32,449 nt of DNA from Gemmatimonadota bacterium (GTDB lineage: Bacteria > Gemmatimonadota > Gemmatimonadetes > Gemmatimonadales > Gemmatimonadaceae). Under the pieces are notes generated by a model that saw only the letters and a program-made list of their open reading frames with translations, was not told the DNA's origin and did no database searches. The position numbers were made by a program, and so were the translations under genes. How positions within the stretch are numbered: position 1 is the stretch's first letter; each line of letters starts with the position of its first letter. This document shows positions 15,089 to 32,449 of this stretch, one piece after another. Where the stretch lies: positions 1-32,449 of the forward strand of contig PLLD01000089.1 of NCBI GenBank assembly GCA_003141205.1, given 5' to 3'.

Positions 15089-16543
15089 ATGCGGACCGCT
15101 CGCCTCCTCGGCCTCGGCGTGCTTCTCCTCCTCGGCCTCCTCGCCGTTCGGACCGCACGCTTTACCTCGCGGCAGCTCCAGCTGTCCCCCAGTCCGTTGC
15201 TCGGCGTCGACGACAGCGCCGCCGCCATCCGACTCGCGCACGCGCTGACGTTCCGGACGATCTCCTACGGAGATTCCGCCCCTCCGCGCGACGCCCTGCT
15301 CGAGCTCCACGCATACCTGGCCGCGAGCTTTCCGGCGACCGCCGCGACGCTCACCCGGGAGGCCGTCGATAGCCTGTCCCTACTATACATGTGGCGGGGG
15401 ACCGACACCGCGCTACGGCCGCTGATCTGCATGGCGCACCTGGACGTGGTACCGATCGACCCGGCGACGGAGAGCCGGTGGCAGTACCCCCCGTTCGCCG
15501 GGCAGATCGTCGATGGCTTCGTCTGGGGGCGCGGGTCTCTCGACGACAAGGCGGGAGTCCTCGCGACCCTCGAGGCGGTCGAGTACCTGATCGCGCACGG
15601 CGTCCACCCGCGCCGAACGATCTACCTCGCCTTCGGCCACGATGAGGAGACCGCCGGGCACGGCGCCGCCGCCATCGCCGATCTCCTGCGCTCCCGTGAC
15701 GTCGTACCGGAAGCGGTCCTCGATGAAGGAGGGCTCGTCACTCGCGGTGTCATCGTCGGCGTCGCCGCTCCGGTCGCCCTTCTCGGGATCGCGGAAAAGG
15801 GGTACCTCAGTGTCGCCCTGACTGTCGATGGAGCGGGCGGTCATTCATCCGCACCGCCGCCCGAAACGACGGTCGGCGTCCTGAGTGCGGCCGTGGCGCG
15901 ACTCGAAGCCCACCCCTTCCCCGTTCGCCTGACCTCTCCCGATCGCGCATTTCTCGAGACGGTCGGACCCGAGATGTCGCTGTCGCGACGCGTGCTTCTG
16001 TCGAATCTGTGGCTCTTCGGCCCCCTGGTCGCTCGCATGCTGGCCGCCTCGCCCGATATGAATGCCTTGGTGCGCACGACCACGGCGCCGACGATGTTCG
16101 AGGGGAGCGTTAAGGACAACGTCCTCCCGGCCCACGCCCGTGCCGTGGTCAACTTTCGGCTCCTCCCGGGCGACAGCGTGGCGGGGGTGCTTGCCGCCGT
16201 CCGCCGCATCGTGCACGACCCCCGCGTCCAGATCACGCCGTACGGACCGACCCACAGCGACGCCTCCGCGGTCGCATCCACGACATCGCCGTCGTATGCC
16301 CTGCTCAACCGCGCCGTCCGGGAGGTCATCCCCGACGCCGTCGTGGCGCCCTTTATGATCGTGGCGGAGACCGATGCGCGGCAGTACCGGGGCGTGAGCC
16401 CAAACGTCTACGGATTCCTCCCCGTCGCCGTCACCGAAACGGAGCTGCCAGGGATCCATGGCGCCAACGAGCGGGTCGCCATCCACGCCTACGGCGACGC
16501 GGTGCGCATCATGATCCACTTCCTCCAGGATATGGCCCAATGA
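15089..16543 (+). CDS. M20 family metallopeptidase (carboxypeptidase S/PM20D1-like) with N-terminal TM anchor
   Basis: [38 protein letters not shown]...[22 protein letters not shown]...[60 protein letters not shown]. Confidence 0.92.
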
Positions 16544-17604
16544 CTGGCGCTACTCGACCCGATGATGTGTCCGTCGCGCGCTCTCGCGATCTCGCCGCCA
16601 GCGCTCAGCGCGCTGTCGATGAGAAAACCAAGCCCCTGGGGTCTCTCGGTGACCTGGAGGCGTGGGCCATTCGCCTCGCCTGCATCCAGCGCACACTCAC
16701 GCCACGCATCGATCGCGCGCGGGTGCTGGTCTTCGCCGCCGACCATGGCGTTGCAGCCGAAGGGGTGAGCGCCTACCCCGCGCAGGTGACGACCGAGATG
16801 ATGCGCAACTTCGCGCGGGGCGGCGCGGCCATCAACGTTCTCTCCCGCGCCAACGACATCGACGTCGAGGTGATCGACGTGGGCGTCGATGCGGATCTGG
16901 CCGACCTACCCGGGATCACGCACGCGAAAGTCCGGCGCGGATCGCGCAACCTCCGGCACGAGCCCGCCATGACCACGGAGGAGTGCGACGCGGCGATCGA
17001 GGTAGGCCGTGCCGTCGCTCGCCGTGCCGCAGCCGATGGCGTGCGCGCCATCGGACTGGGAGAGATGGGAATCGCCAACACCACCGCGGCCGCGGCGCTC
17101 CTGAGCGCGCTCGCCAGCGCACACCCTGACGCGACGGTCGGTCGCGGGACCGGCATCGACGACGCTCGCCTCGTCCACAAGCGCGCCGTCGTCGCAGCCG
17201 CCCTCGCGCGCCACGCCGCGAACGTGACCGATCCCGCCGCGCCCCGCGCCGCCCTCACCTCTCTCGGCGGTCTCGAGCTCGCCGCGATCGCGGGGGCCGC
17301 TCTCGAAGCTCCAGCGCACGGCATCGCCGTCGTCGCCGATGGCTTCATCTCCTCGGTCGCAGTCCTCGCTGCGCTCCGGATCGAGCCGGCGATCGCGGGC
17401 CATATCTTCGTCGCCCACGAGTCGGCCGAAGCGGGCCACGGCGTCGCCATCGACGCACTGGGCGCCCGACCCATGCTCCGCCTCGGCCTACGACTCGGCG
17501 AGGGGACAGGCGCCGCGTTGGCGATCCCCCTCCTGCGATCCGCCGCCGTCATGCTGTCCGAGATGGCGACGTTCGCGGACGCCGGTGTGTCCCGCGAGAG
17601 CTGA
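16540..17604 (+). CDS. cobT: Nicotinate-nucleotide-dimethylbenzimidazole phosphoribosyltransferase
   Basis: DEKTKPLGSLGDLEAWAIRLACIQ...VLVFAADHGVAAEGVSAYPAQVTTEMMRNFARGGAAINVLSR...GLGEMGIANTTAAAALL...GRGTGIDDARLVHKRAVV...VVADGFISSVAVLAALR. Start overlaps the M20 stop by 4 nt (ATGA). Confidence 0.95.
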   Translation: MTGATRPDDVSVARSRDLAASAQRAVDEKTKPLGSLGDLEAWAIRLACIQRTLTPRIDRARVLVFAADHGVAAEGVSAYPAQVTTEMMRNFARGGAAINVLSRANDIDVEVIDVGVDADLADLPGITHAKVRRGSRNLRHEPAMTTEECDAAIEVGRAVARRAAADGVRAIGLGEMGIANTTAAAALLSALASAHPDATVGRGTGIDDARLVHKRAVVAAALARHAANVTDPAAPRAALTSLGGLELAAIAGAALEAPAHGIAVVADGFISSVAVLAALRIEPAIAGHIFVAHESAEAGHGVAIDALGARPMLRLGLRLGEGTGAALAIPLLRSAAVMLSEMATFADAGVSRES

Positions 17605-18367
17605 GCCGGGAGCGCGCCCGATCCGCTCCCAGCTTCGCGCGGCCCGTGCCGCGCTCACCTTCCTCACGCGCCTCCCGCTCCGCGGCGACGTGTCTGATAT
17701 GGCGGAGCTCGCGCGCGGCACGATCTACTTCCCCCTGGTTGGCTCCCTCGTGGGCGCAGTGGGCGGTGGGGTCTATTGGATTGCGTCCGGCATCTGGCCC
17801 GCTTCGGTCGCGGTCGTGCTGTCCACCATGGCCACGGCCGCCCTCACCGGCGCCTTTCATGAGGACGCGCTCGCGGACGCGGCGGACGGATTCGGCGGCG
17901 GATGGGATCGCGAGCGCGTTCTCGCGATCATGCGCGACAGCCGCATCGGTGCCTACGGCGCGCTCGCGCTCATCCTGGTCGTCACGGCCAAGATCGCGGC
18001 GCTGAGCGCGCTCCCACGCATCGATGTCGTTCGCGCGCTCGTCGCCGGACACGCCCTTGCCCGCTGGTCCAGCTTACCCCTGCTCTGGCGTCTGCCGTAT
18101 GCGCGCGACTCCAGCGGAACCGCCACGCCATTCGTCGGCGGTGTGACGATCCCCCGGCTCACCGTCGGTACCGCGCTCACGTGCGCCGTTGTCATTTCCG
18201 TCCTCGGCTGGCACGCCCTTGGCCCTACAGTGGCCGCCTTCGGGCTCACCCTCGTCTCCGGCTGGTACTACCGGCGGCGTATCGGTGGCATCACGGGCGA
18301 TTGCCTCGGCGCCACCAATCAGTGCGTCGAGCTGGCGACGTATCTCGCGCTCGTCGCGATCGTTTAG
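17585..18367 (+). CDS. cobS: Adenosylcobinamide-GDP ribazoletransferase (cobalamin synthase)
   Basis: AALTFLTRLPLRGDVSDMAELARGTIYFPLVGSLVGAVGG...GAFHEDALADAADGFGGGWDRERVLAIMRDSRIGAYGALALIL...GTATPFVGGVT...RRRIGGITGDCLGATNQCVELATYLALVA. In-frame GTG at 17585; the ORF from 17339 is over-extended into cobT. Confidence 0.93.
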   Translation: MCPARAEPGARPIRSQLRAARAALTFLTRLPLRGDVSDMAELARGTIYFPLVGSLVGAVGGGVYWIASGIWPASVAVVLSTMATAALTGAFHEDALADAADGFGGGWDRERVLAIMRDSRIGAYGALALILVVTAKIAALSALPRIDVVRALVAGHALARWSSLPLLWRLPYARDSSGTATPFVGGVTIPRLTVGTALTCAVVISVLGWHALGPTVAAFGLTLVSGWYYRRRIGGITGDCLGATNQCVELATYLALVAIV

Positions 18368-18471: not shown

Positions 18472-19911
18472 TCACGCCGTCGTGGTCGGCGTGGTGCATC
18501 CTTTGTAGTTCGGGTTCGTGATCGGTGTCCCGCTCGCCCGCGTCGGCAACGTGAGGCTCACATCATTCCCGTAGTTCAGGATCGGCGTTGGGAGGTTGCT
18601 ATCATGCCCGTCGGGGAACGGTCCAACCGGGAATAGTGTCGCTTGGTCCCGGCCATACTGGCGGATCAACCGTCGCAGATCGCCGAGTCGTGTCCCGGTG
18701 CCGAAGAGCCAGAATGCACGCTCGCGAAACATCATATCCACTTGTCCATCCGCACTCAGGCCAATGGTCGAATCGGCATGAATGGGCGACTGTGACGTAT
18801 CGAACGCCACGTGCGTGCTGGCGGAATCCGCTCGGAGCGCGCTGAGATCGGCCGCCCATCCGCCGACGTCGTTCGTGTGCAACGCGACCTCGGCCTCGAT
18901 GAGCCGCGCCTCGACTCCCGTGGCGAGGGGAACCAGTGTCGAGGGGAATGCCCCGAACTTCATCGGGTAATACCACGTACCCGGCGTGACGCCGGTATAT
19001 GTTGCGCCGCACGTCAACGCGATCGTGCTGTCCACGACGACCCGAGGATCGTGGGCCGAGACAAAGCCCAGACCGTTTCCCCCCTCGTGATCGGCCACGT
19101 TGGTCAGGCCGCAGGGCTGAGACGGCCCATAATAGAGGTAGTTATTGGCATACAGATTCACGACATAGGGCGCGCCTTGGTCGGTCGTGGCTTCGAGCTC
19201 GGTGTTGTAGACGAACCCCGTTGCCACGCCCGACACGGCGCTTGCCGCGATCGCGTATTCATTGCGGTCGAGCCGAGCGCGCCCGAGACCGATCCCGGCC
19301 AGCGAGAGGACCGTGTCGCTCCCACTCGCGTGGGTGATCGCCGAATCGAAATGCGCTTCGGCGACGGCGAGGAGGGAATCGGTCGTGAGCGGCATTCCGT
19401 AGACAATGCCGCCGTCCGCGATGATATAACTGAGGGGCACACCCGCGCAGTAGTCCTCCGCCATGAACAGCTCGCCGTACGCGATCAGCGCGTAGGCCTC
19501 GCCGATCCTCGCCGCGCCGGCGGATGGATCGTACTGCCGTAACCCGCCGACCACCTGGAGGAGTGTCGATCGCGTCTGGAGGATGCTGGCAAGCGCGGCG
19601 TCCCCCACCTCCGAGAATCCGCCCTGCGCCGTCGTCATCCGGGCGTCGACGTTGGCTCCGGGCGCGAAAACGGCGCCCCACGAGAACTCATCCGACAACA
19701 CGCCGGACCATTGCATCAGGTTGTTGGCGCCGGCCAAGGCGGCGAACATCTGCCCTCGCGCGCCAATGAACTCGCTTTCGACGCCGGCTGCGTTCTTGAC
19801 CGCACCCGATCCAACGACATTCGCCGGCGGTGGAACGCTCAGCACATCACTCGGCCGACAGGCAAACGTAGCGGCGGCCAAGACGACGACGATCGCGCAT
19901 AGTGCTCGCAT
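18472..19911 (-). CDS. SusD/RagB-like outer-membrane lipoprotein
   Basis: Lipobox leader MRALCAIVVVLAAATFACRPSDVL; MFRERAFWLFGTGTRLGDLRRLIRQYGRDQATLFPVGP near the C-terminus, typical of SusD; directly downstream of SusC. Confidence 0.85.
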   Translation of the reverse strand: MRALCAIVVVLAAATFACRPSDVLSVPPPANVVGSGAVKNAAGVESEFIGARGQMFAALAGANNLMQWSGVLSDEFSWGAVFAPGANVDARMTTAQGGFSEVGDAALASILQTRSTLLQVVGGLRQYDPSAGAARIGEAYALIAYGELFMAEDYCAGVPLSYIIADGGIVYGMPLTTDSLLAVAEAHFDSAITHASGSDTVLSLAGIGLGRARLDRNEYAIAASAVSGVATGFVYNTELEATTDQGAPYVVNLYANNYLYYGPSQPCGLTNVADHEGGNGLGFVSAHDPRVVVDSTIALTCGATYTGVTPGTWYYPMKFGAFPSTLVPLATGVEARLIEAEVALHTNDVGGWAADLSALRADSASTHVAFDTSQSPIHADSTIGLSADGQVDMMFRERAFWLFGTGTRLGDLRRLIRQYGRDQATLFPVGPFPDGHDSNLPTPILNYGNDVSLTLPTRASGTPITNPNYKGCTTPTTTA

Positions 19912-19913
19912 GA

Positions 19914-22900
19914 TCACAGCCCGAGATTGAGTCGGAATACCCAATACCGCAGGAGGGGCACCGAGGCGGGGCCGTCCCCGCGGATATCGTTATTCACATA
20001 GAAGGATGTGCTTGAGTAGAACTGAGATTGTCCTACGTTCTCGCCCGCAACCTCCGGATCCGGACCGGTATACCGCGTCCACAACGCGAGATTGCGCACG
20101 GCCGCCGTCACGCTGACACTCTGGAGGCGGATCACGTCGACCCAGTGGTGTGGCACGGCATACGTCACCCCGAGCTCGCGGATTCGCAGGAAGCTTCCGT
20201 CTTCGATCAGTCCCGTGGGACTACGGCTGCAGCAGAGCCAGCCTTCCAACGCCCTCGCCTGTAGCGCCAATGGGGCGGTCGGATCATTCTGCTCGCGCAG
20301 CGTCAAGACAGTGCTTGCAAAGCCCGCGTTTACGTTGTTGACCTTGTATCCGCCTCGGTAGTCTGCCAGCGCATTGATCGTGAGCGCGCCGCGCAAGAGC
20401 CCCAGTTGCGTCGAGACCGACACCTCGCGGGTGGGCAGACTCGGTCCCGCATACGAGATGGAGTCGGCGATCGTCTCCTCGCTCGGCTCGATCACCCCAT
20501 CCCGATTGGCATCGGCGAAATGCGTCTGCAACCCCCAATAGCCATATAGCGGATACCCAGCAACCTGTTGCTGCCCGCTGAAACCGAGTGCCTGCGGCGG
20601 AACGCCGGGGGCCAGGTGCAGCAGCTTGTTGTTGTTGACCGAGCCCGCGACCGTGACATTCCACATCACGCGGGGCGTCTGCACGACGCCAACGGTCACG
20701 AGGGCCTCGGCACCGGTGTTTCGTACGGCGCCCAGATTGACCTGGTACAGGTATTGGCCGAGGTCGAAGCCAAGCGTCTGGTTGTACAGCGCGTCCTGTG
20801 TGGTCTTCGAGTAGCCCGTGAGCTCGACACTCACGCGATTCTGCCAGAGTCCGATGTCGAGACCCCCCTCGTATTCGACCGACCGTTCTGGACGAAGGTT
20901 GGGGTTCCCTGGTGTGCTGATTGTCGTGGAGGAGACGGGCGCGCCGTTGACCCATGTCGCGTTGGGCGCATACAGCTCGAGCGCCGCACCGTTGTTCGGT
21001 TGTACACCCGATTCACCGAGCGCCCCGCGCAGCCGTACCGTCAGGGTTCTGTCGTCTACCGCGAGCCAGGACACGCTCGCCTTGGGATACGCGGCGGTGC
21101 TATAGGAGTACCCGAATCCGCTCCCGGCGTCCACGCGCAACGCACCGGTGAGGAACAGGCGATCGGAGATGCCGATCTGCTCCTCAGCGTACCCACCGAG
21201 CGTCCCGGTCCGATCGGCTGTCTGTGAGATTCGCGGATTCACCGACCCATTGAGCGTCAGATTGCTGGGCGGCAGACCGTATGCGGAAGCCTGTATTCCC
21301 TGTGTGCGCGTATCCACCATCTGTAGTCCAAGCGACGTGATGGCCCGCACCCGGCGCGTCAGCGCCGCGGTTGCGGATGCCCGTAGATCCACCGAGTAAA
21401 TGTCGGTTGTACTGTTATCAATAATGAGATAGCCAACATCGTTGCCGACGCCGAAAGCGGCGAGGCCGGCCTGAGGAAGGTTGAGATGCTGCTCTCGCCG
21501 GGAACCGTGATCCAGCCCGACGGTTCCGTGCGCTACCAGCCAGCCTTCGGGTCGCCAGTTCGCCGTCAACCCGCCGGTCAGGCGGTCCACCTGTTGGCTC
21601 TGCAGCGCACCAATGTTTGCCAGGGCACCGTTATAACTGGGGCCGTATCCGTACCCGTAGGCGGAATCCGCTAGTACGGGGCCACTCGTTATAGCCAGAG
21701 ACAGCGGCGGCGTCACCTGGTACGTCGATAGGTACGCGCCTGTCGCGGTCAGGTCCGCCGTCTGACCCAGTTTAATCGACGTATTCGTTCGGACCGACCG
21801 CTGGTCCTCGCTATTCGGATTGAGTACGGAGGCGGGGAACCCCAGCGCGTCAGCCTGTGCCCGGAAAATCGGGGGCACCCGCGTGACCCCGGTTTCATTG
21901 GACAGGCCGGCCGCCACGTAATACCGAAGTGTTTCCGATCCGCCTCCCACTGACAGATCGTACTTGCTGCGCGTTCCGGTGCCGAAGAGCGAATACCGCG
22001 GATTATTCAGTGGATTGAAGTGGGTAATGCTGTCGACCACGCACGTTCCGTAGGTCGTCCCGTAGTTATACGGCGGCCCGAAAGGCGCATCTAACCCGTC
22101 GAAGGGCGGAACGAGCGCGCACTGAGTGGCGGTGCCCGTGCCGTCCGTCGTATGCCCCCAGCTGTAGTAGAACTCGGGGAAGCTGACGGGGACGCGACTT
22201 GCAGTCTGCTCCGCCGATGCCTGCCACGTGGGCCGGCCGGCCGTCCCCCTCTTGGTGGTGATGACGATGACGCCATTCGCCGCGTCGGTGCCATACTCGG
22301 TCGATGCGGCGGGGCCTTTGAGGATGTCGATCGTCTCGATCTGGCTGAAATCGATGTCGTTGAGACGACTGGGAGAGGGCGCGAAGCTGCCCGAGACCGC
22401 CACCACCCCGCCTGGCGTGTTGTCCTGCCGCACGCCGTCGACGATGAGGATCGGATCGCTTTGCAGGACGACACTGCTCTGCCCGCGAATCCGGATCGCC
22501 TCTCCGCTCCCGGTCAGACCGCCGGTCTCCACGATCTGCACACCGGGCGCTCGGGCCGAAATGAGATCCGTGACGCTCGTTATGGGCGCTGTCGGAGTGA
22601 TCGAATCGGCGTTGATGCTCGAGATCACATTGCCGACCTCGTAGCGCCGCTGCTCCCCCACCGCCGTCGTCACGACTTCGTCCAGCTTGGTCGGAGCGGC
22701 GGCGAGCGCGAAGTCGGTCGTCGTCGTCTGGTCACTCGTCACGACGACGTCTTTCGTCAGCGACTGATAACCGACGCGGCGCCCCGTGACGTGATACATC
22801 CCGGGCGCGACCCCTGCGATCGTGTACCGCCCGTCGGTGCCGGACACGGCGCTGAGCGACAGCCCCTCGATTCGAACGGAGACCTGCGCTAACGGCGACT

Positions 22901-23408
22901 GCAGGATGCCGTCGATCACGTGCCCGGTGATCTGCCCCGTGTTTTGCGGGGCCGCGACGAAGGCGCCGGCCCCGACGGACGCGCCCGCGCGGAGCGTGAT
23001 CCAGCCACTTGGTGACACCACCACGTCCACTCGCGTATCCCGAAGCAGCAGCGCGAGAGCATCGCCGACCGTGATGTTGTCGGTCGTGAGCGACACCCGC
23101 ATCTCCACCGGAACCTGGTCGCGGCTATAGGTGAGCCGGATTCCCGTTTGGGCACTGATCTCCTTCAGAGCCTCGCCCAGCGTTCCGTGCTGCACATGCA
23201 GCGCGATCTTTTGCCCGAGCACCCGAGCTCGCACCGCCGTCGTCTCATCTGTCGTCTCATCTCCGGTCGCGGCAGGGATCGCCCGAGGGGCCGGCTCTTG
23301 GGCCCGCACACCGCCGGCCATCGAGGCAAGCAGTCCGGCGGTCGCACCACAGGCGCGGATGCCGCGCCATGGCATGGTCGCTCTGATTCCGTGAGTCGAC
23401 ATGGTCAT
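19914..23408 (-). CDS. SusC/RagA-like TonB-dependent receptor with N-terminal STN domain
   Basis: ATG at 23408 overlaps the FecR stop. STN-like LGQKIALHVQHGTLGEALKEISAQTGIRLTYSRDQVPVEMRVSL..., CarboxypepD-reg GQITGHVIDGILQSPLAQVSVRIEGLSLSAVSGTDGRYTIAGVAPG, plug SINADSITPTAPITSVTDLISARAPGVQIVETGGLTGSGEAIRIRGQSSVVLQSDPILIVDGVRQ. The 1478-aa ORF is over-extended antisense to no gene but across fecR in another frame. Confidence 0.93.
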   Translation of the reverse strand: MTMSTHGIRATMPWRGIRACGATAGLLASMAGGVRAQEPAPRAIPAATGDETTDETTAVRARVLGQKIALHVQHGTLGEALKEISAQTGIRLTYSRDQVPVEMRVSLTTDNITVGDALALLLRDTRVDVVVSPSGWITLRAGASVGAGAFVAAPQNTGQITGHVIDGILQSPLAQVSVRIEGLSLSAVSGTDGRYTIAGVAPGMYHVTGRRVGYQSLTKDVVVTSDQTTTTDFALAAAPTKLDEVVTTAVGEQRRYEVGNVISSINADSITPTAPITSVTDLISARAPGVQIVETGGLTGSGEAIRIRGQSSVVLQSDPILIVDGVRQDNTPGGVVAVSGSFAPSPSRLNDIDFSQIETIDILKGPAASTEYGTDAANGVIVITTKRGTAGRPTWQASAEQTASRVPVSFPEFYYSWGHTTDGTGTATQCALVPPFDGLDAPFGPPYNYGTTYGTCVVDSITHFNPLNNPRYSLFGTGTRSKYDLSVGGGSETLRYYVAAGLSNETGVTRVPPIFRAQADALGFPASVLNPNSEDQRSVRTNTSIKLGQTADLTATGAYLSTYQVTPPLSLAITSGPVLADSAYGYGYGPSYNGALANIGALQSQQVDRLTGGLTANWRPEGWLVAHGTVGLDHGSRREQHLNLPQAGLAAFGVGNDVGYLIIDNSTTDIYSVDLRASATAALTRRVRAITSLGLQMVDTRTQGIQASAYGLPPSNLTLNGSVNPRISQTADRTGTLGGYAEEQIGISDRLFLTGALRVDAGSGFGYSYSTAAYPKASVSWLAVDDRTLTVRLRGALGESGVQPNNGAALELYAPNATWVNGAPVSSTTISTPGNPNLRPERSVEYEGGLDIGLWQNRVSVELTGYSKTTQDALYNQTLGFDLGQYLYQVNLGAVRNTGAEALVTVGVVQTPRVMWNVTVAGSVNNNKLLHLAPGVPPQALGFSGQQQVAGYPLYGYWGLQTHFADANRDGVIEPSEETIADSISYAGPSLPTREVSVSTQLGLLRGALTINALADYRGGYKVNNVNAGFASTVLTLREQNDPTAPLALQARALEGWLCCSRSPTGLIEDGSFLRIRELGVTYAVPHHWVDVIRLQSVSVTAAVRNLALWTRYTGPDPEVAGENVGQSQFYSSTSFYVNNDIRGDGPASVPLLRYWVFRLNLGL

Positions 23409-24535
23409 TTGCTCGGTGTGCTCTGGGTGGTCACCAGTGGCGCGCGACTGGCGGGCACCCCGCGATCCGCCGCACCGACCCGCCGGCGGAGAATCACCTT
23501 GCGCCCGGTCCGCTCGTACTGCGCACCCACGGCTTGCGAGATCGCATCCAGAACCTCGTCCGCGGGATCGTCCCCAAACGCGGCGGTCAACCGCCGGCTC
23601 CCCAAGGTCGAATCGGCCAGCACGATCTCGAGATCCAATGCGCGAGCGAGTGTGCGCGCGGCTTCGCGCAATGGCGTGTCCTCGAACACCAGCCGCCCCT
23701 GCGACCAGGCGAGATCCGGCGAGACGTCGGTGCCGCGCGTGACCGACATGTGGCCGGAGGCATCGATCGAGGCGCGATCCCTGGCGCGCAACTCTGTCCC
23801 GCCGAGCATGACCTCGCCCTCCGAAACGGCGACCCGCTCGCTCGGATCCCCTGCGTAAGCTGCGACCACGAATGTCGTGCCGACATCTCGGACGGTTGTG
23901 CGCTCGGTACGGACGGCGAACGGGTGCCGAGTGTCGTGCACGACCGCGAACAGCGCCTCGCCGTCGAGCTCCACAATGCGCTCGGAGCGCCCGAAATCCA
24001 GCGGCACGCGGACACGTGTCGCGGGTCCCAGCATGAGCTGCGTACCATCGTGTAGCGTCACCGTCGCCCGATTCCCCGCCGCAGTCGTGAACTCGCGGAA
24101 CTGCTGGCTTGCGGGCGACCGCGTCGCGACCGACCAGCCCAGGGCGATCACCAACCCTGCGGCGACCGCCCATCCCATCCGGCGCGCGGACGGCGCGGCC
24201 GACAACGCGGCGAGGTACGTCGGTCGCGGGGAATCGATCGGCGCGCCGATCCGGCGAATGCCGGGCGCGCTGTTGGCCCAGTCGCGCCCGCTCGCCTGCG
24301 GTTGCGCGGTCGAGGGGCCCAACCCGAGACGCGCATGCATCGCGCCCCATGAAGTCGCGGGATCGAACGACGCGCTTCCGGCCGCGCGCGCGTCAGCGAT
24401 ATGGCGCAGCGATTCGACGTACTCCTTTCGCTCGGGCGCGCCGTCCATCCACTCCAGGACGCGCTGCCGCTCCGCCGGACTGCAGGCATCCGACAAATAG
24501 CGAAGGACGAGGGGCCAATCGATCTCAGATTTCAT
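23405..24535 (-). CDS. FecR-family anti-sigma regulator
   Basis: 376 aa: WPLVLRYLSDACSPAERQRVLEWMDGAPERKEYVESLRHIADAR...ATVTLHDGTQLMLGPATRVRVPLDFGRSERIVELDGEALFAVVHDTRHPFAVRTERTTVRDVGTTFVVAAYAGDPSERVAVSEGEVML. Confidence 0.92.
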   Translation of the reverse strand: MKSEIDWPLVLRYLSDACSPAERQRVLEWMDGAPERKEYVESLRHIADARAAGSASFDPATSWGAMHARLGLGPSTAQPQASGRDWANSAPGIRRIGAPIDSPRPTYLAALSAAPSARRMGWAVAAGLVIALGWSVATRSPASQQFREFTTAAGNRATVTLHDGTQLMLGPATRVRVPLDFGRSERIVELDGEALFAVVHDTRHPFAVRTERTTVRDVGTTFVVAAYAGDPSERVAVSEGEVMLGGTELRARDRASIDASGHMSVTRGTDVSPDLAWSQGRLVFEDTPLREAARTLARALDLEIVLADSTLGSRRLTAAFGDDPADEVLDAISQAVGAQYERTGRKVILRRRVGAADRGVPASRAPLVTTQSTPSK

Positions 24536-24614
24536 CGGCGGTGGTAGCTGTGGACATCACAGCCTCAGACACCCGAACCCGATTTACCCCACCGGCAGGC
24601 CCCCCCTCAGAACG

Positions 24615-25259
24615 CTACAGGAATCCGGTAAGCTCTTCGCGCAACGCCTTGAACGCTCGACGTAGCGTGTTCTCGACCGATTTGGCCGAGATCCCCATGG
24701 CGGCCCCGATCTCGGCATGCGAGAGCTGGCCGCGCCAGCGCAGATCGAACGCTTCGCGCTGGCGAACGGGCAGGCGCTGCATGGCCCGATCCAATGCGGC
24801 GTGCAGCTCGTCCTCGTACATCTGCCGGTCCGCGCCACGCGGACCCTGCCCCATTCCCGTAATCCCGCTCTCATGCTCCGCACGCTTGCGCCAGCGCTGC
24901 GCCACCCGCTCGGCGCGAACCCAATTGAATGCCCGGTTGCGTGCGGCGCCAAAGAGATACCGCTGTATGCTCCCGTCAAGCCACCACGTCGCCCGCTGGC
25001 GCCACACCTTCGCCAGCAGATCCTGGACGATCTCCTCCGCCACCGCCGGAGACTGGACGTAGCCCAGTACGAATGCGCACAGCGGCTGATAAAAAGCGAA
25101 GTACAGATCTCTGAACGCGATTTCGTCGCCAGCGCGGATCTGCTCCACGAGCGTGCGTCCGTCCCCTACTACCGGACGCGACGCGCTCGGCGCCGTATCG
25201 GGAACGGCTACGCGATCGGACCGTGAGACGCCGCGAGGACGCATACGCTGGGCCACCAA
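24615..25259 (-). CDS. ECF-type RNA polymerase sigma factor
   Basis: LVEQIRAGDEIAFRDLYFAFYQPLCAFVLGYVQSPAVAEEIVQDLLAKVWRQRATWWLDGSIQRYLFGAARNRAFNWVR...ALDRAMQRLPVRQREAFDLRWRGQLSHAEIGAAMGISAKSVENTLRRAFKALREEL. Confidence 0.93.
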   Translation of the reverse strand: MVAQRMRPRGVSRSDRVAVPDTAPSASRPVVGDGRTLVEQIRAGDEIAFRDLYFAFYQPLCAFVLGYVQSPAVAEEIVQDLLAKVWRQRATWWLDGSIQRYLFGAARNRAFNWVRAERVAQRWRKRAEHESGITGMGQGPRGADRQMYEDELHAALDRAMQRLPVRQREAFDLRWRGQLSHAEIGAAMGISAKSVENTLRRAFKALREELTGFL

Positions 25260-25367: not shown

Positions 25368-25782
25368 TCAACGCGACGCGCGCAACTTCTCAGCCGTTCC
25401 GTTCACATCGACGACCGTTACCACGCCATTCGGCTGCTCGATCTCCCAGAAGTCGTCCAGCGGCCGCCCGGTCACCTCGAGCAGGATGATCCGATTCACA
25501 TGCCCGTGCGCCACAACCAGTGTCGTGCCACCGCCGTACCGTGTTACCAACGCCCCCCACGCCGCGAGTACCCGCGCGCGAAACCGCGTGACACCAGATG
25601 CCGCGCCAACAGTGCATGCGCCTGGTCGAGCTGTCCCCCCTCGAGCGCGCGCTCCACGGCGGCCGCAGCACCGAGAAGATCCCGCAGCGCCAGCGCCGGC
25701 TTGAGTGCTATGCCGCGCGCCAGCGCCCTTTGCCACCCGTCGCCCCGAACAACAGGTCGAGAGCCACCGCACCGTCGCGACG
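25368..25782 (-). pseudogene. Decayed cbiB-cobC remnant: CbiB N-terminal scrap, CbiB internal segment, CobC (alpha-ribazole phosphatase/histidine phosphatase) C-terminus
   Basis: Three frames in order: DGAVALDLLFG (~25737-25782), ALKPALALRDLLGAAAAVERALEGGQLDQAHALLARHLVSR (within 25586-25735), then VTRFRARVLAAWGALVTRYGGGTTLVVAHGHVNRIILLEVTGRPLDDFWEIEQPNGVVTVVDVNGT (25368-25595). No intact ORF covers either gene. Confidence 0.72.
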
Positions 25783-25812
25783 CCGCGGGACGGTCGCCGT
25801 CCCGCCCTTCTA

Positions 25813-26913
25813 TTAGAAGGTTGCAATCCGGATCGCGGACGGACCCTGCCCCATCGCGACGCTGTCGGTCAACGCATACGTGCCGTGCTGGTAGACGAAC
25901 ACCTCCGGCGCGAGCCCCTGACCCGAGCTCCCGAAAAAGACCTGGTAGACATTCCCGGACGCATCGGGACGCGCGTCGAATGCCCCGCGGCATGCGCCAC
26001 CCGCGATCGGCGCACACACCGGATTGCTCGGGTCGCGCACGAACGTCTGCGTGGCCGTGTTCCAGATGACCGTGCCCCCCAAAAAGCTCGAGATGTAGGC
26101 CAGCCCCGCGCTGTCGATCGCGATTGTTCCGGGGCCCACACCCACGTTCGCTACCGTGGTGATGACCGAGAGGTTGGAAGTGTCGATGACGGTGAGCGTT
26201 CCGGGATTGACGTAGTCCCCCGTATTCACGACGTAGAGGTGCCCATCGGGCCCAATCGCTCCTGCCGCGGAATTCGTGCCCGTGGTGCTGACGGTGTTGA
26301 TGACCGCAAGTGTACGCGCATCGATCTCCGTCACGATGCCATTCCCGATGGGGGAGTAATTGACGTCGAGGTTGCCCGAGATGATGAACGCATGCGAGCC
26401 CCCGACGACCACGTCCGTCGGGGATGGCGCGACAGCGACCGTATCCGTGATCGTATCCGACGCTTGCCCGGCCGTGAAGCGACCGACGATCCCCCTAATC
26501 GGGTTCGTCGCCAGAATCGTGCTATCGTCCACGAACGCCTGCCCCGTCGCGTTCCCCGCCGAAAAGATCGCGTATCGCGTGATCGCCAGCGTGCTGAGAT
26601 CCACTAGCGCGACACTCGCGGCATCGCCAAGCGGCACGGCGGCCGTCGTGCCTCGCACGCTAAGCCCGACCGGCGTGATCGCGCTCGACGCGCCAAGCGC
26701 GATCTGTCGCGTCTGCGTGGGCGCGCCCAGCTGAAAGAGCGTCAGCGACCGGCCCGTGGAATTGACCACGATGCCGATCTGATGATTGGTCGCCGTCCCG
26801 CGAAGGAACGGCGCGACCGATGTGCCGGTCGCCGTGTCCGAGTGACAGGCCGCCGCGAGTAGCAGCCCCGCGATTCCGGCGCCCCACATCGCGCGCGAAG
26901 AGAAACGGGTCAT
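25813..26913 (-). CDS. Beta-propeller (YVTN-type) lipoprotein; candidate BtuG-like surface B12-binding protein
   Basis: ATG at 26913 (4-nt overlap with the btuB-like stop). Lipobox MTRFSSRAMWGAGIAGLLLAAACHSD; repeated blade-like motifs HQIGIVVNSTGRSLTLFQL, ASVALVDLSTLAITRY, GIVTEIDARTLAVINTVSTTG, GHLYVVNTGDYVNPGTLTVIDTSNLSVITTVANVGVGPGTIAIDSAGLAYISSF. Confidence 0.8.
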   Translation of the reverse strand: MTRFSSRAMWGAGIAGLLLAAACHSDTATGTSVAPFLRGTATNHQIGIVVNSTGRSLTLFQLGAPTQTRQIALGASSAITPVGLSVRGTTAAVPLGDAASVALVDLSTLAITRYAIFSAGNATGQAFVDDSTILATNPIRGIVGRFTAGQASDTITDTVAVAPSPTDVVVGGSHAFIISGNLDVNYSPIGNGIVTEIDARTLAVINTVSTTGTNSAAGAIGPDGHLYVVNTGDYVNPGTLTVIDTSNLSVITTVANVGVGPGTIAIDSAGLAYISSFLGGTVIWNTATQTFVRDPSNPVCAPIAGGACRGAFDARPDASGNVYQVFFGSSGQGLAPEVFVYQHGTYALTDSVAMGQGPSAIRIATF

Positions 26914-29069
26914 CGTGGCGTGGCGAACCGCAGTCCGAATGTCCATGTGCGTCCAGGGTAGGGGTAATCGATCAACAACGTGGCACGGCGATCGAAGACA
27001 TCATCGACACCGCCGAGTGCATCGAGCGGCCATCGGCCACTCAGGATGCGCACCGTCGCGTGCGCGTCCGTGATCCAGTAGGCTCCAAGAGCATTGATGG
27101 AGGACCCGTCCACCGTCCGGCGGTCGCCGATGTAGCGCAGCGAGACCTCGGTATGTATTCGCCCCACCGTCTCGGCTCCGCCGACGGCAGCCGTAACGCG
27201 TGGCCGGTACGGGACCTGTCCGGTCAGCACCGGTCCCGCGTACTCCACCGCGACATCAGTCAGGTTTCCGCGCAGCTCGGCCCCAATCGTCGGGAAGGAC
27301 AGCGCGCCACTCCCCTCCCATCCTCGACGCCGCACATCGACGTTGTCCGGGCTCCAGACGAAGCGGTAGTCCGGGAACCAGAGGATCATCCCCGTCACAT
27401 CCGCTCGATAGACCGCGATGTCGCCGCTGATCCGGACGGTGGACGACCCGACGTCCCGCAGCGCGAGGCGCGCTTCGAGATCGTCGTGCACCCGCTCCGG
27501 CCGAAGATCGGGATTCGGGGCAACCAGCACGCCCTCGTGGAAGAACTGGTCGGCCAGCGTCGGCGGATTGAAGGCCGACCCACCGCTCATGGATGCGACG
27601 AAGGGGCCGTGCGTCGCCGCGATAGTCACGCGCGGAGAGACCACGGTTCCGCGCACGAAGGGATCCCAATCCGCGCGCACAGCGGCATCGGCCGTGAGGA
27701 TCGTGCCCGCCCGCAGCGGCACGGACGCGTGGGCCTGCGCCCAGAGTCCCTCGTCCCGCTCCGTCGCCGGCGCCGCCACCGTGAGCTCCGTCGCAACGAC
27801 GTGGATCACGCGCACCTCACTCCCCATCGTGAAGGCGACAGGATGCAGCGGGAGGGTCGCGACGGCGGTGCCCACGACGCTCGTCGCTCGTACCGTGTCA
27901 TCGTACGGCGGTCCGATCGGAGGGCTCGGGTCGCGATACGTCGTGCGCTCGTTGTCCGCCGCGAGATCGGCCGACCAGTGCACGGGCCCGCTCGCGTCCT
28001 CGGCGTCGACCCCTCCGGACAATCGCGTGTCCCCGCTCCGCGCGAACGCCGACGGCGCATCGATCGAGCCCGCGATCCCCCGCTGGGTGCTCGCGAGCAT
28101 CCCGTGGGCACCCACCGCGATCGGCCACGCGCTCGAGGCCACCGACGCCGATAGGGACGACGTCGCCGCGGCGTCGTTCGCGCGGACAGCGGTGCCGCCG
28201 CCGCGGACCGCCGGGACGTCATACGGAAAATCTCCGGTGAGCATCCGACGATCGGCCGTAACGCTGCCCGTCAGAGCACTCGGCACATCGATACCGCCAG
28301 ACAGGATTCCCTCTCGATCTCCCCGCGAGCCACCTCGCGCTTCGGCTGACAGCATGGTCCCGGTGGGCCTGCGCGTCTCGATCAACACCACACCCCCGAG
28401 CGCCCCTCCGCCGAAGCGCGCGGCCTCCGCGCCGCGCACAATCGTGATGCTCTCGACCTGTGCGAGCGGGATGAGGGAGAGGTCGGCCTCCCCGGTCATC
28501 GGGGAGTTGAGGCGCACCCCATCGACCAGAACCAGGATCTCGTTCGCCGTCGAGCCACCGATCGAGACGGTCGCCGGTCCCCCCGGACCACCTCGGCGTG
28601 TCACAAGCACGCCACTCTGTTGATCCAGCAGTGCACCCACATCGCGCTGCCCCGAAGCATCGATCATCGTGCGCGAGATGGTCGTCGTCGCGCCGCCGGT
28701 CGTATCGGGGCGCTCGCGCACTCGCACCTCCGGCAACCGAACGGCCAGCGCCTCGAGCGCGATAGCCAGGCGGGCACTCCGTCCATTCTCGACCGCGATG
28801 TCGATCGTCGCTGGTCGAAAGCCCACCGCGCTCGCGCGCAACGAATAGGCGCCCGGTACGAGGCCGCGCACGACGAAATCCCCGTCTGCGTCCGTCACCG
28901 CGAGCCGCTCTCCGTCCGCGACATCGATGCGCGCGTCCGCGATCGCGGTTCCGCGCGCACGGTCCGTCACGCGGCCACGCACTTCACTTGGCACCTGGCC
29001 CTGCACGCCGGTCGCCACTCCGAGCGCCAGCCACGCGGCCGCAATGGTCGCCACGGGCCACGCCGTCAC
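26910..29069 (-). CDS. btuB: BtuB-like TonB-dependent (cobalamin) receptor with N-terminal CarboxypepD-reg domain
   Basis: GTG at 29069 overlaps the btuD stop. EVRGRVTDRARGTAIADARIDVADGERLAVTDADGDFVVRGLVPGAYSLRASAVGFRP; plug DVGALLDQQSGVLVTRRGGPGGPATVSIGGSTANEILVLVDGVRLNSPMTGEADLSLIPLAQVESITIVRGAEAARFGGGALGGVVLIETRR; C-term ...DYPYPGRTWTFGLRFATPR. B12 specificity inferred from the operon and riboswitch. Confidence 0.85.
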   Translation of the reverse strand: MTAWPVATIAAAWLALGVATGVQGQVPSEVRGRVTDRARGTAIADARIDVADGERLAVTDADGDFVVRGLVPGAYSLRASAVGFRPATIDIAVENGRSARLAIALEALAVRLPEVRVRERPDTTGGATTTISRTMIDASGQRDVGALLDQQSGVLVTRRGGPGGPATVSIGGSTANEILVLVDGVRLNSPMTGEADLSLIPLAQVESITIVRGAEAARFGGGALGGVVLIETRRPTGTMLSAEARGGSRGDREGILSGGIDVPSALTGSVTADRRMLTGDFPYDVPAVRGGGTAVRANDAAATSSLSASVASSAWPIAVGAHGMLASTQRGIAGSIDAPSAFARSGDTRLSGGVDAEDASGPVHWSADLAADNERTTYRDPSPPIGPPYDDTVRATSVVGTAVATLPLHPVAFTMGSEVRVIHVVATELTVAAPATERDEGLWAQAHASVPLRAGTILTADAAVRADWDPFVRGTVVSPRVTIAATHGPFVASMSGGSAFNPPTLADQFFHEGVLVAPNPDLRPERVHDDLEARLALRDVGSSTVRISGDIAVYRADVTGMILWFPDYRFVWSPDNVDVRRRGWEGSGALSFPTIGAELRGNLTDVAVEYAGPVLTGQVPYRPRVTAAVGGAETVGRIHTEVSLRYIGDRRTVDGSSINALGAYWITDAHATVRILSGRWPLDALGGVDDVFDRRATLLIDYPYPGRTWTFGLRFATPR

Positions 29070-29869
29070 CGGCCACCGCTCAGGGGCACGAGGTAGGGGA
29101 TGCCCGCATCGGTCCGCGCGAGGCCGACAGGCCATCCGAATACCTGCTCCACCCGCTCCGGAGTCAGCACCTCCGCCGGAGGTCCATCGGCCACAAGCCG
29201 CCCCTCGCTCAACAGCACGACGCGGTCGGCGTAGCGAGCCGCGAGCATCAAGTGATGCGTGATGTGCACCACGGTCACACCACCATCCGCCAACGCCCGC
29301 AACAGAACCAGGATCGCCATCTCGTGCGCCAGGTCGAGCGACGCCGTCGGCTCATCCAGCGCGAGCGCCCTCGGCGACTGCGCCAAGGCCCGTGCGATGC
29401 GCACACGCTGCCGCTCCCCGCCAGATAACGTGTCGACGGACCGGTCGGCGAATCCGGCCACGTCGCATCGGTCCATCGCCGCCGCGATCGCGGCGGCATC
29501 GGCCGGTCCCTCACTCCGCCACGGCCCGAGATGGGGATATCGTCCCATCGCGACGAGCGCTCGCGCCGTCATGGGGAACGCCTCGGTTTCTTCCTGCGCC
29601 ACGACGCCAACGGTGCGTGCGAGCGCGGGACGCGACCATTCCGAGAGCGGCTGCCCGAAGCACTCCACCCGCCCATTCGATGGCTCCACAACGCCAAGCA
29701 ACGCCTTCAGGAAAGTCGACTTGCCGGAGCCGTTCGGGCCCAGGACCGCCGTGCACCGCGCGGACGCGATATCGAGGCTGACATCGGCCAGGGCCGCGAC
29801 GCGCGCGCGCTGATACCACACGGAGAGCCGCTCGCAGCGCCACGCGGGTCCCGGCGTTTGGGGACTCAT
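29066..29869 (-). CDS. btuD: ABC transporter ATP-binding protein, cobalamin/heme/siderophore type
   Basis: Walker A LGPNGSGKSTFLKALLG, signature LSGGERQRVRIARAL, Walker B ALALDEPTASLDLAHE. ATG at 29869 overlaps the btuC stop; the 629-aa ORF is an N-terminal over-extension. Confidence 0.93.
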   Translation of the reverse strand: MSPQTPGPAWRCERLSVWYQRARVAALADVSLDIASARCTAVLGPNGSGKSTFLKALLGVVEPSNGRVECFGQPLSEWSRPALARTVGVVAQEETEAFPMTARALVAMGRYPHLGPWRSEGPADAAAIAAAMDRCDVAGFADRSVDTLSGGERQRVRIARALAQSPRALALDEPTASLDLAHEMAILVLLRALADGGVTVVHITHHLMLAARYADRVVLLSEGRLVADGPPAEVLTPERVEQVFGWPVGLARTDAGIPYLVPLSGGR

Positions 29870-30885
29870 GACCCGCGGCGACGGAGGAGTGCGACGAACA
29901 CCGGGACGCCGATCACCGCCGTCACGGCTCCGAGCGGAAGCTCCGTCGGCGCGGCGATCGTGCGGGCCGCGACATCGGTGAGGAGCACGAAGGTGGCCCC
30001 CAGAATCGCGGCGACCGGCAGCAGGGTGCGATGGTTGCTCCCCCACACGAGCCGGACCGCGTGCGGCACGATCAGTCCGACGAAGCCGACGATCCCGGCC
30101 GCGGCGACGGCCGCCGCCGCAAGCAGCGACGCGACGATGTACGCGATCCACTTGGTGCGCTCGACCGAAACGCCGAGGTAGCTCGCGGTCTCCTCGCCGA
30201 TCGCCAGCGCATTCAGTGGGCGCGCGAGCGCCAGCAGCGCGATGAAGGATGGTACGAGCACGACCGCGAGAAGCGTGACACCCGACCAATTGCTTCCGGA
30301 CAGGCTCCCCATCATCCAGATGGTCGCCGACCGAAAGGCCGCGACGTCGGCCATCGAGAGCAAGAGGAAGATCCCGGCGTTCGCGAAAGCGCCAACGATG
30401 ACGCCGGCGAGGAGCAGGATGCGCGGATCCAGCGTCGGTCCGACACCGAGCGCTACGCGCACGACGAGCGCGATCGCGACACACGACCCCACGGCGGCGC
30501 CGACCGGGACCGGCCACGGCACCGGAATGAACTGCGCGAGCGTGATCGACCCGACCGCCCCAAGCGCCGCACCGCCGGACACACCCAACACGTACGGCTC
30601 GGCCAACGGATTCCGCAGCAGCGCCTGGAACGTCGTCCCGCTGAGCGCGAGCGCGGCACCCACGAGCGCCGCCGCCATGGCACGCGGTAGTCGCAGATCG
30701 TGCACGATCGTGCGCGTCACCGGGTCCGAGTGCCCAATGAGACCGCCGAGCACCGCCCGCAACCCGAGTGGCACCGATCCGAATGCGATGCTCGCGACCA
30801 CGGCGAGCACGAACGCCACGGCGAGCGCGATCCCCCATCCCGCACGCCACGCGGTGCGATCCCCCGCGGTGGCCGACGTCGTCAT
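29866..30885 (-). CDS. btuC: FecCD/BtuC-family ABC transporter permease
   Basis: LRLPRAMAAALVGAALALSGTTFQALLRNPLAEPYVLGVSGGAALGAVGSITLA...EETASYLGVSVERTKWIAYIVASLLAAAAVAAAGIVGFVGLIVPHAVRLVWGSNHRTLLPVAAILGATFVLLTDVAART. ATG at 30885 overlaps the btuF stop. Confidence 0.94.
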   Translation of the reverse strand: MTTSATAGDRTAWRAGWGIALAVAFVLAVVASIAFGSVPLGLRAVLGGLIGHSDPVTRTIVHDLRLPRAMAAALVGAALALSGTTFQALLRNPLAEPYVLGVSGGAALGAVGSITLAQFIPVPWPVPVGAAVGSCVAIALVVRVALGVGPTLDPRILLLAGVIVGAFANAGIFLLLSMADVAAFRSATIWMMGSLSGSNWSGVTLLAVVLVPSFIALLALARPLNALAIGEETASYLGVSVERTKWIAYIVASLLAAAAVAAAGIVGFVGLIVPHAVRLVWGSNHRTLLPVAAILGATFVLLTDVAARTIAAPTELPLGAVTAVIGVPVFVALLRRRGS

Positions 30886-31865
30886 CGCGGCACGTCCGCG
30901 TGTACGCCGGCCGGAGTCGCGGGAACGCTTCCCTTGGCCTCGGGATGGATCGCATCGCGAAAGAGCTGCGCGACGTCCCCGATCGCGGGTCCCGGACGAT
31001 TGGTCAGATCGGCCGGAACTTCGATGACGCGCCCCGCGCGCACGGCGGGGAGATCCCGCCATCCGGGAGTGGTCATGAGGCGCTCCGCCCCGCCGTGCCG
31101 ATCCTCGCCGACCGAGAGGAGGATGACGCCGGGTGCGCGCGCGACGATCTCCTCCATCGAGACCTGCGGCCAATCGGTCGCCGCATCGTCGAAGGCGTTT
31201 CGTCCCCCCGCGACGCGGATCAGCTCCGCGATGAACGTGCGCGGTCCGACCGTCATCGGTGGGTCGCCCCAGATCGCGAACAGCACGGTGGGTGTCGGCC
31301 GTCCCGCGACCGATTGTCGGACGGCGGCGAGCTGCGTATGCGCGTGATCCGCGAGGGCGGCGGCCGCGCTATCGCGTCCGAGGAGGTGTCCGAGCGCTGC
31401 GGTGGTGCTGAACACGGCGGCCGTATCGCGTATAGGCGTGGCGTAGCTGGTGATACCACGGGCGTCGATCCCGGCGCGCACGGCGGACCCGTGCTTCCCC
31501 TCCCACAGGAGCACGAGATCCGGGCGCAACGCCGTGAGCTGCTCGAGATTCGGGTCGATCCCGCCCCCGACCGACGGGACCGACGCGAGCGCAGGGTCCC
31601 GGTCGTACCGCGTCCGGCCGACTAGCTGGGATGTCGCGCCGAGTGCTATGACCATTTCGGTCGCGCTCGGGACGAGCGAGACGACGCGCTGCGCCGGCTG
31701 GTTGAGCCGAACGGTGTCTCCGTCCGCGTCGATCGCGACGAGAGCTCGGGCGACATCGGCGCGCTTGCCCGCCGGTGATGTGCGGCATGCGACGAGTCCC
31801 ATTACCAGCGTTCCGCTGGCCGTGGCAATCCGCCGTCCCCGAACCCATCCACCCACCAACAACAT
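30882..31865 (-). CDS. btuF: Periplasmic cobalamin-binding protein (BtuF/FepB-like), probable lipoprotein
   Basis: [82 protein letters not shown]...; lipobox-like GLVACR; directly downstream of the B12 riboswitch. Confidence 0.92.
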
Positions 31866-31907: not shown

Positions 31908-32004
31908 GGTGGTGGCGCGAAGACCGGGACGTCAACAGACGCGTCCCGCCATCACGGCATGTCGCCCCGCCTCCCTCCCTCGAGGTGTATCGTGCGGGAG
32001 CGAA

Positions 32005-32235
32005 CGGGGCGCGTCTCCTGGCTCGAGGCAGTCGTGCTCGCCTTCCCAGAGCACGCCGCGGCCAATCGCCGCGCGCGTTCCAGTGGCATTCTGAGCACGC
32101 CGGTCCGGTGGTACCACTCGGCCAATGCACATGGCATCTGCCGCCCACCAGGCCTCTGACAGTGGCGGGGCCGCGCCGGCATTGCACCGGACTTCCGCGA
32201 ACCCCATTCGCAATCAATTGTGGACGCGAACCTAT
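32005..32235 (-). ncRNA. Cobalamin (B12) riboswitch aptamer upstream of btuF
   Basis: Minus-strand conserved blocks in order: GGAAGTCCGGTGCAATGCCGG (32176-32196), CCCGCCACTGTCAG (32156-32169), GCCACTGG (32080-32087), GGGAAGGCG (32039-32047), B12 box GCCAGGAGAC (32013-32022). 5' boundary uncertain. Confidence 0.93.
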
Positions 32236-32305: not shown

Positions 32306-32449
32306 ATGCCCGTACAGACACGCGCCGCCGTTCTGATGGTCCAGGGCACAGCGTCCCACGTCGGGAAATCGACCCTCGTGACCGCCCTCTGCCGCATCTT
32401 CGCACGCGACGGCTGCCGCGTGGCCCCGTTCAAGGCGCAGAACATGTCC
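32306..32449 (+). CDS. cobQ: Cobyric acid synthase, N-terminus (truncated by window end)
   Basis: [48 protein letters not shown]: CobQ/CbiP P-loop GTASxVGKS and PFKAQNMS. Confidence 0.93.

Follow-up and report, generated by a model that had tools for sequence, protein, structure and literature searches.

Pathway decay of the kind described here is common. Salvage of cobinamide has been described for E. coli, and 15% of bacterial genomes are predicted to be capable of it (PMC6461909). Like such salvagers, the Gemmatimonadaceae genome considered here has corrinoid uptake, an adenosyltransferase, CobU, CobT and CobS all present, and no intact cbiB was found in it; unlike those of the E. coli type, it keeps cobQ, and what is left of the lost genes can still be recognized. 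The closest described gene arrangement is the intact Gemmatimonadaceae locus btuFCD-btuB-propeller-cbiB-cobD-cobO-cobC-cobT-cobS (G021:C1; G061:C21 = JAQBQB010000019.1; G114:C7). The window, i.e. the whole stretch of 32,449 nucleotides analyzed, resembles this locus in its divergent cobQ and in the order of the genes as far as the propeller, and carries remnants of cbiB and cobC at the expected place and in the expected orientation; the differences are the destruction of cbiB, cobD, cobO and cobC and the position of cobT-cobS, 7 kb off on the other strand. With known bacterial pseudogenes formed by internal deletion the remnant shares the frame breaks, the loss of the catalytic part and the occurrence of intact homologues in relatives, and it differs from them only in the genes concerned. 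There is little doubt in our interpretation of the locus as the pseudogene remnant of a riboswitch-led operon, which lost cbiB-cobD-cobO-cobC by at least two deletions, with cobinamide salvage as the presumed consequence.

The upstream half of the operon, from the start of cobQ through the riboswitch, btuF, btuC, btuD and btuB to the propeller gene, is arranged as in the relatives. The 3′ end of this riboswitch-led B12-uptake operon, which is encoded on the minus strand, is formed by the decayed cbiB–cobC scrap. The relevant features of the window are:

32330–32449, plus strand: 5′ part of cobQ, truncated where the contig ends (75% identity over 40 amino acids).
31991–32221, minus strand: cobalamin riboswitch leading the operon (RF00174, 51.5 bits, cut-off 31.5).
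30882–31865, minus strand: btuF-like periplasmic binding protein (PF01497, E 9e-36).
29866–30783, minus strand: btuC-like permease (FecCD; start approximate; PF01032, E 7e-88; 57% identity to BtuC of G021).
29066–29850, minus strand: btuD-like ABC ATPase, C-terminal part of the open reading frame 29066–30955, start approximate (Pfam ABC_tran, NCBIfam heme/corrinoid ATPases).
26910–29135, minus strand: btuB-like TonB-dependent receptor (Pfam Plug and TonB_dep_Rec; 43% identity to the receptor of the G021 operon).
25813–26946, minus strand: intact beta-propeller-like gene, immediate upstream neighbour of the remnant and synteny anchor (orthologues at 48–71% identity).
25744–25779, minus strand: possible N-terminal cbiB scrap (RDGAVALDLLFG), a weak profile match (shuffle p ~0.05) at the correct distance after the propeller stop.
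25586–25720, minus strand: internal cbiB pseudogene fragment (ARGIALKPALALRD...ARHLVSR), 59–70% identical to intact CbiB of G075, G061 and G021.
25584–25595, minus strand: deletion junction from cbiB (LVSR) to cobC (VTRF) with a different frame, located by frames and alignments and spanning 2.6–3.3 kb in the relatives.
25368–25592, minus strand: cobC pseudogene fragment, C-terminal third and stop, the N-terminal RHG catalytic motif missing (Pfam His_Phos_1, TIGR03162).
16540–17604, plus strand: cobT, intact, away from its operon position (PF02277, E 7e-122).
17627–18367, plus strand: cobS, intact and, like cobT, away from its operon position; start approximate (PF02654, E 3e-52).

The original prediction had claimed that an internal CbiB-like piece and a C-terminal CobC-like piece occur here in different frames, and translation of the window confirmed that all the quoted peptides are on the minus strand, in the frames given. 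Directly after the propeller gene, one frame reads ARGIALKPALALRDLLGAAAAVERALEGGQLDQAHALLARHLVSR at 25720–25586, and the reading is continued in another frame by VTRFRARVLAAWGALVTRYGGGTTLVVAHGHVNRIILLEVTGRPLDDFWEIEQPNGVVTVVDVNGTAEKLRASR-stop at about 25592–25368. In tblastn searches, the middle fragment of CbiB showed 70% identity over 44 amino acids to G075 (E 4e-14), 66% to G061 and 59–61% to G021, in alignments of 44–49 amino acids. The Pfam family CobD_Cbib by itself matched it weakly (E 0.018, below the cut-off), so its assignment to CbiB rests on the close relatives together with synteny, as a syntenic intact orthologue exists in G021, G061, G114 and G075. The gene is not intact: about 180–230 nt preceding the fragment and everything beyond LVSR have been lost, and the reading frame shifts at both ends. 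Concerning CobC, the C-terminal piece is homologous to the family by Pfam His_Phos_1 (E 5.7e-13, 49.4 bits versus a cut-off of 21.7) and by NCBIfam TIGR03162, alpha-ribazole phosphatase (E 1.5e-8, profile positions 115–175 of 176), the 34 bits scored with the latter being under the full-length cut-off of 162.9, as expected of a fragment. The RHG motif present in the CobC of the relatives is absent from it.

A third piece, the N-terminal CbiB scrap DGAVALDLLFG, had also been proposed. Its position is suitable, at 66 nt past the propeller stop, compared to 45, 63, 63 and 77 nt for the corresponding Gly in the relatives, but its profile score is weak, being equalled by 5% of shuffles and by 4.6% of window positions. 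From its placement, it is likely, although unproven, that it corresponds to the cbiB N-terminus; the case for it is weaker than originally stated.

Orthologues of the propeller gene occur in few Gemmatimonadaceae. When the same position was inspected in relatives, as the original prediction had advised, intact genes were indeed found there: in G021, G061, G114 and G075, cbiB begins within tens of bases of the propeller stop and is directly followed by cobD and cobO. The next gene is cobC in three of the four (G021, G061 and G114), while in G075 cobC was not found at the syntenic place. In the operon of the relatives cobT and cobS come after cobC, and a divergent cobQ and cobU are on the other side of the operon in G021, G061 and G114. 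Since the relatives carry cobD and cobO between cbiB and cobC, the latter two were not ancestral neighbours; so, of the claim that internal deletions had fused cbiB and cobC, the deletions stand and the adjacency of the two genes does not. Concerning cobC in the relatives, G021 has two cobC-like genes (L029:2514-3179 and L029:3970-5694), one of them sharing an open frame with cobT; this frame, of 574 amino acids, is possibly a CobC-CobT fusion, and G114 looks alike.

The extent of the missing DNA was estimated from conserved motifs. The distance from GEPP to KPAL in CbiB is 216–270 nt in the relatives and 38 in the window, while that from LVSR of CbiB to the GESL region of CobC is 2.6–3.3 kb in the relatives and essentially none in the window. 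No fewer than two deletions, their number and order being inferred, account for this: some 0.2 kb was lost within cbiB, and some 2.6–3.3 kb from mid-cbiB to the last third of cobC, the latter including the remainder of cbiB, the whole of cobD and cobO, and the beginning of cobC. The window retains no trace of cobD, whose loss was judged from position only, as aminotransferase paralogues are many and TIGR01140 could not decide its presence. Comparison of the region with the relatives by blastn gave no useful match, the DNA being too diverged. The fragments are as similar to the relatives as their intact neighbours are (BtuC 57%, CobT 59%, CobS 48%, propeller 48–60%), which suggests that the deletions are recent relative to the split. 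At the junction, the CbiB part is readable up to ...HLVSR, and alignment of the CobC part begins near VTRF. The microhomology originally proposed there survives as a possible shared stretch of roughly 7–9 nt, weaker than stated; a deletion through it is plausible as a mechanism, but unprovable.

Several observations concern the surroundings of the remnant. A perfect 9-bp GC hairpin, terminator-like for the plus strand, is found at 25785–25805, just past the propeller stop. Strong GC hairpins also occur about 45–50 nt past the propeller stop in the sister genomes G016 and G063, where they possibly serve as a 3′ end in place of read-through to the genes that were lost. The pair cobT-cobS (16540–18367), about 7 kb away, is out of place and in the opposite orientation to the other operon genes, which may reflect an inversion that also included the genes at 18472–25259 (TonB receptor, FecR, ECF sigma factor). 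The gene of the uncharacterised propeller-like protein follows that of a btuB-like receptor also in genomes for which searches gave no cbiB (L015, L016 and L019), making the protein a candidate for acting with this receptor in corrinoid uptake.

The genome is a MAG of 344 contigs, 82.6% complete, and was inspected by family searches. These found no intact cbiB, cobO or cobC elsewhere in it, in line with the original prediction that the organism had lost this copy. The only other His_Phos_1 match in the genome, on contig C333, covers just profile positions 1–77, and the single matches of G016 and G059 are limited to the same positions. Contig C330, of 7321 bases, carries at its end cobU and the 3′ portion of cobQ (profile positions 184–477). 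As cobQ is split over two contig ends (32330–32449 and G000:C330:6384-7321), contigs C17 and C330 are probably adjacent in the genome, separated by some 0.4 kb. A PduO-type adenosyltransferase is encoded on C189 and is present in 10/10 genomes examined. The interpretation as a remnant is based on the fragment homology and the intact genes after the orthologous propeller in four relatives, on the sizes of the missing stretches and the failure to find intact cbiB, cobO or cobC in the same genome, on the retention of cobT, cobS, cobU, both cobQ ends and the PduO-type adenosyltransferase, and on a propeller tree that places the genome as sister to three in which cbiB, cobO, cobS, cobU and cobQ were not found.

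An assembly or binning artefact, by which distant parts of an intact operon were joined, or a difference between strains at the locus, is an improbable explanation. The evidence comes from one genome of many contigs, but the two parts could share at most about 7–12 nt where they join, far below usual assembly word sizes, a separate second frame-breaking deletion exists inside cbiB, the missing cbiB, cobO or cobC did not turn up on any stray contig of the bin, and cbiB and cobO were not found in the sister clade either. Counterpoints to the reading as a remnant are that intact copies could lie in the sequence missing from the MAG, that no second genome of the genus was found in which the junction recurs, and that the retained cobQ is without obvious use once cbiB is gone. 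It seems very unlikely that its persistence beside a dead cbiB reflects an unrecognised enzyme performing the CbiB/CobD step (aminopropanol attachment), so that the pathway was not lost. Still less credible is a functional small gene encoding a chimeric or truncated protein, either from the open reading frame 25368–25826 (minus strand, 152 amino acids, TTG start) or from the frame with the CbiB piece. The interval does contain open reading frames of 152 and 157 amino acids, and the frames of the fragments are open; both open reading frames, however, start within the propeller gene and cross one of the two homologous parts out of frame, the CobC part has lost the catalytic RHG motif, most of both ends is missing from the CbiB part, and no promoter-like site was found for the remnant region. 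A search for phage matches to the same region was also negative. Chance resemblance in GC-rich DNA, conceivable for the N-terminal scrap alone at its ~5% level, is refuted for the two main fragments by E-values of 4e-14 and 6e-13 and by their correct order and syntenic place, and can practically be dismissed.

In the interpretation of the locus as a pseudogene remnant, the ancestor had a riboswitch-controlled operon btuF-btuC-btuD-btuB-propeller-cbiB-cobD-cobO-cobC, then cobT-cobS, and in the lineage two or more deletions destroyed cbiB, cobD, cobO and cobC, leaving the out-of-frame scrap, as synteny and homology show. The attachment of aminopropanol to cobyric acid would no longer be made, cobamides would be made from imported cobinamide, as in E. 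coli, or imported whole, and the CobC step would be taken over by another phosphatase. The late B12 pathway is partly kept, not wholly lost. From its gene content the genome looks like that of a cobinamide salvager, for which it is predicted that cobinamide would be usable and cobyric acid would not. In a limited literature search, no report was found of cobinamide salvage in Gemmatimonadota or of a remnant of this locus.

In the tree of one gene, the propeller gene, the genome is sister to G016, G059 and G063 with support 97/100. Family searches of these three found none of cbiB, cobS, cobO, cobU and cobQ, and no cbiB or cobC trace was found around their propeller genes. It is plausible that the genome is an intermediate in a stepwise loss of cobamide assembly. 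The Gemmatimonadaceae would then offer a series, from the whole operon in the relatives, through dead cbiB-cobD-cobO-cobC with salvage kept, to a sister clade that gave no match for any late-pathway gene searched for, and this makes a useful case, real but ordinary, for how B12 dependence evolves.
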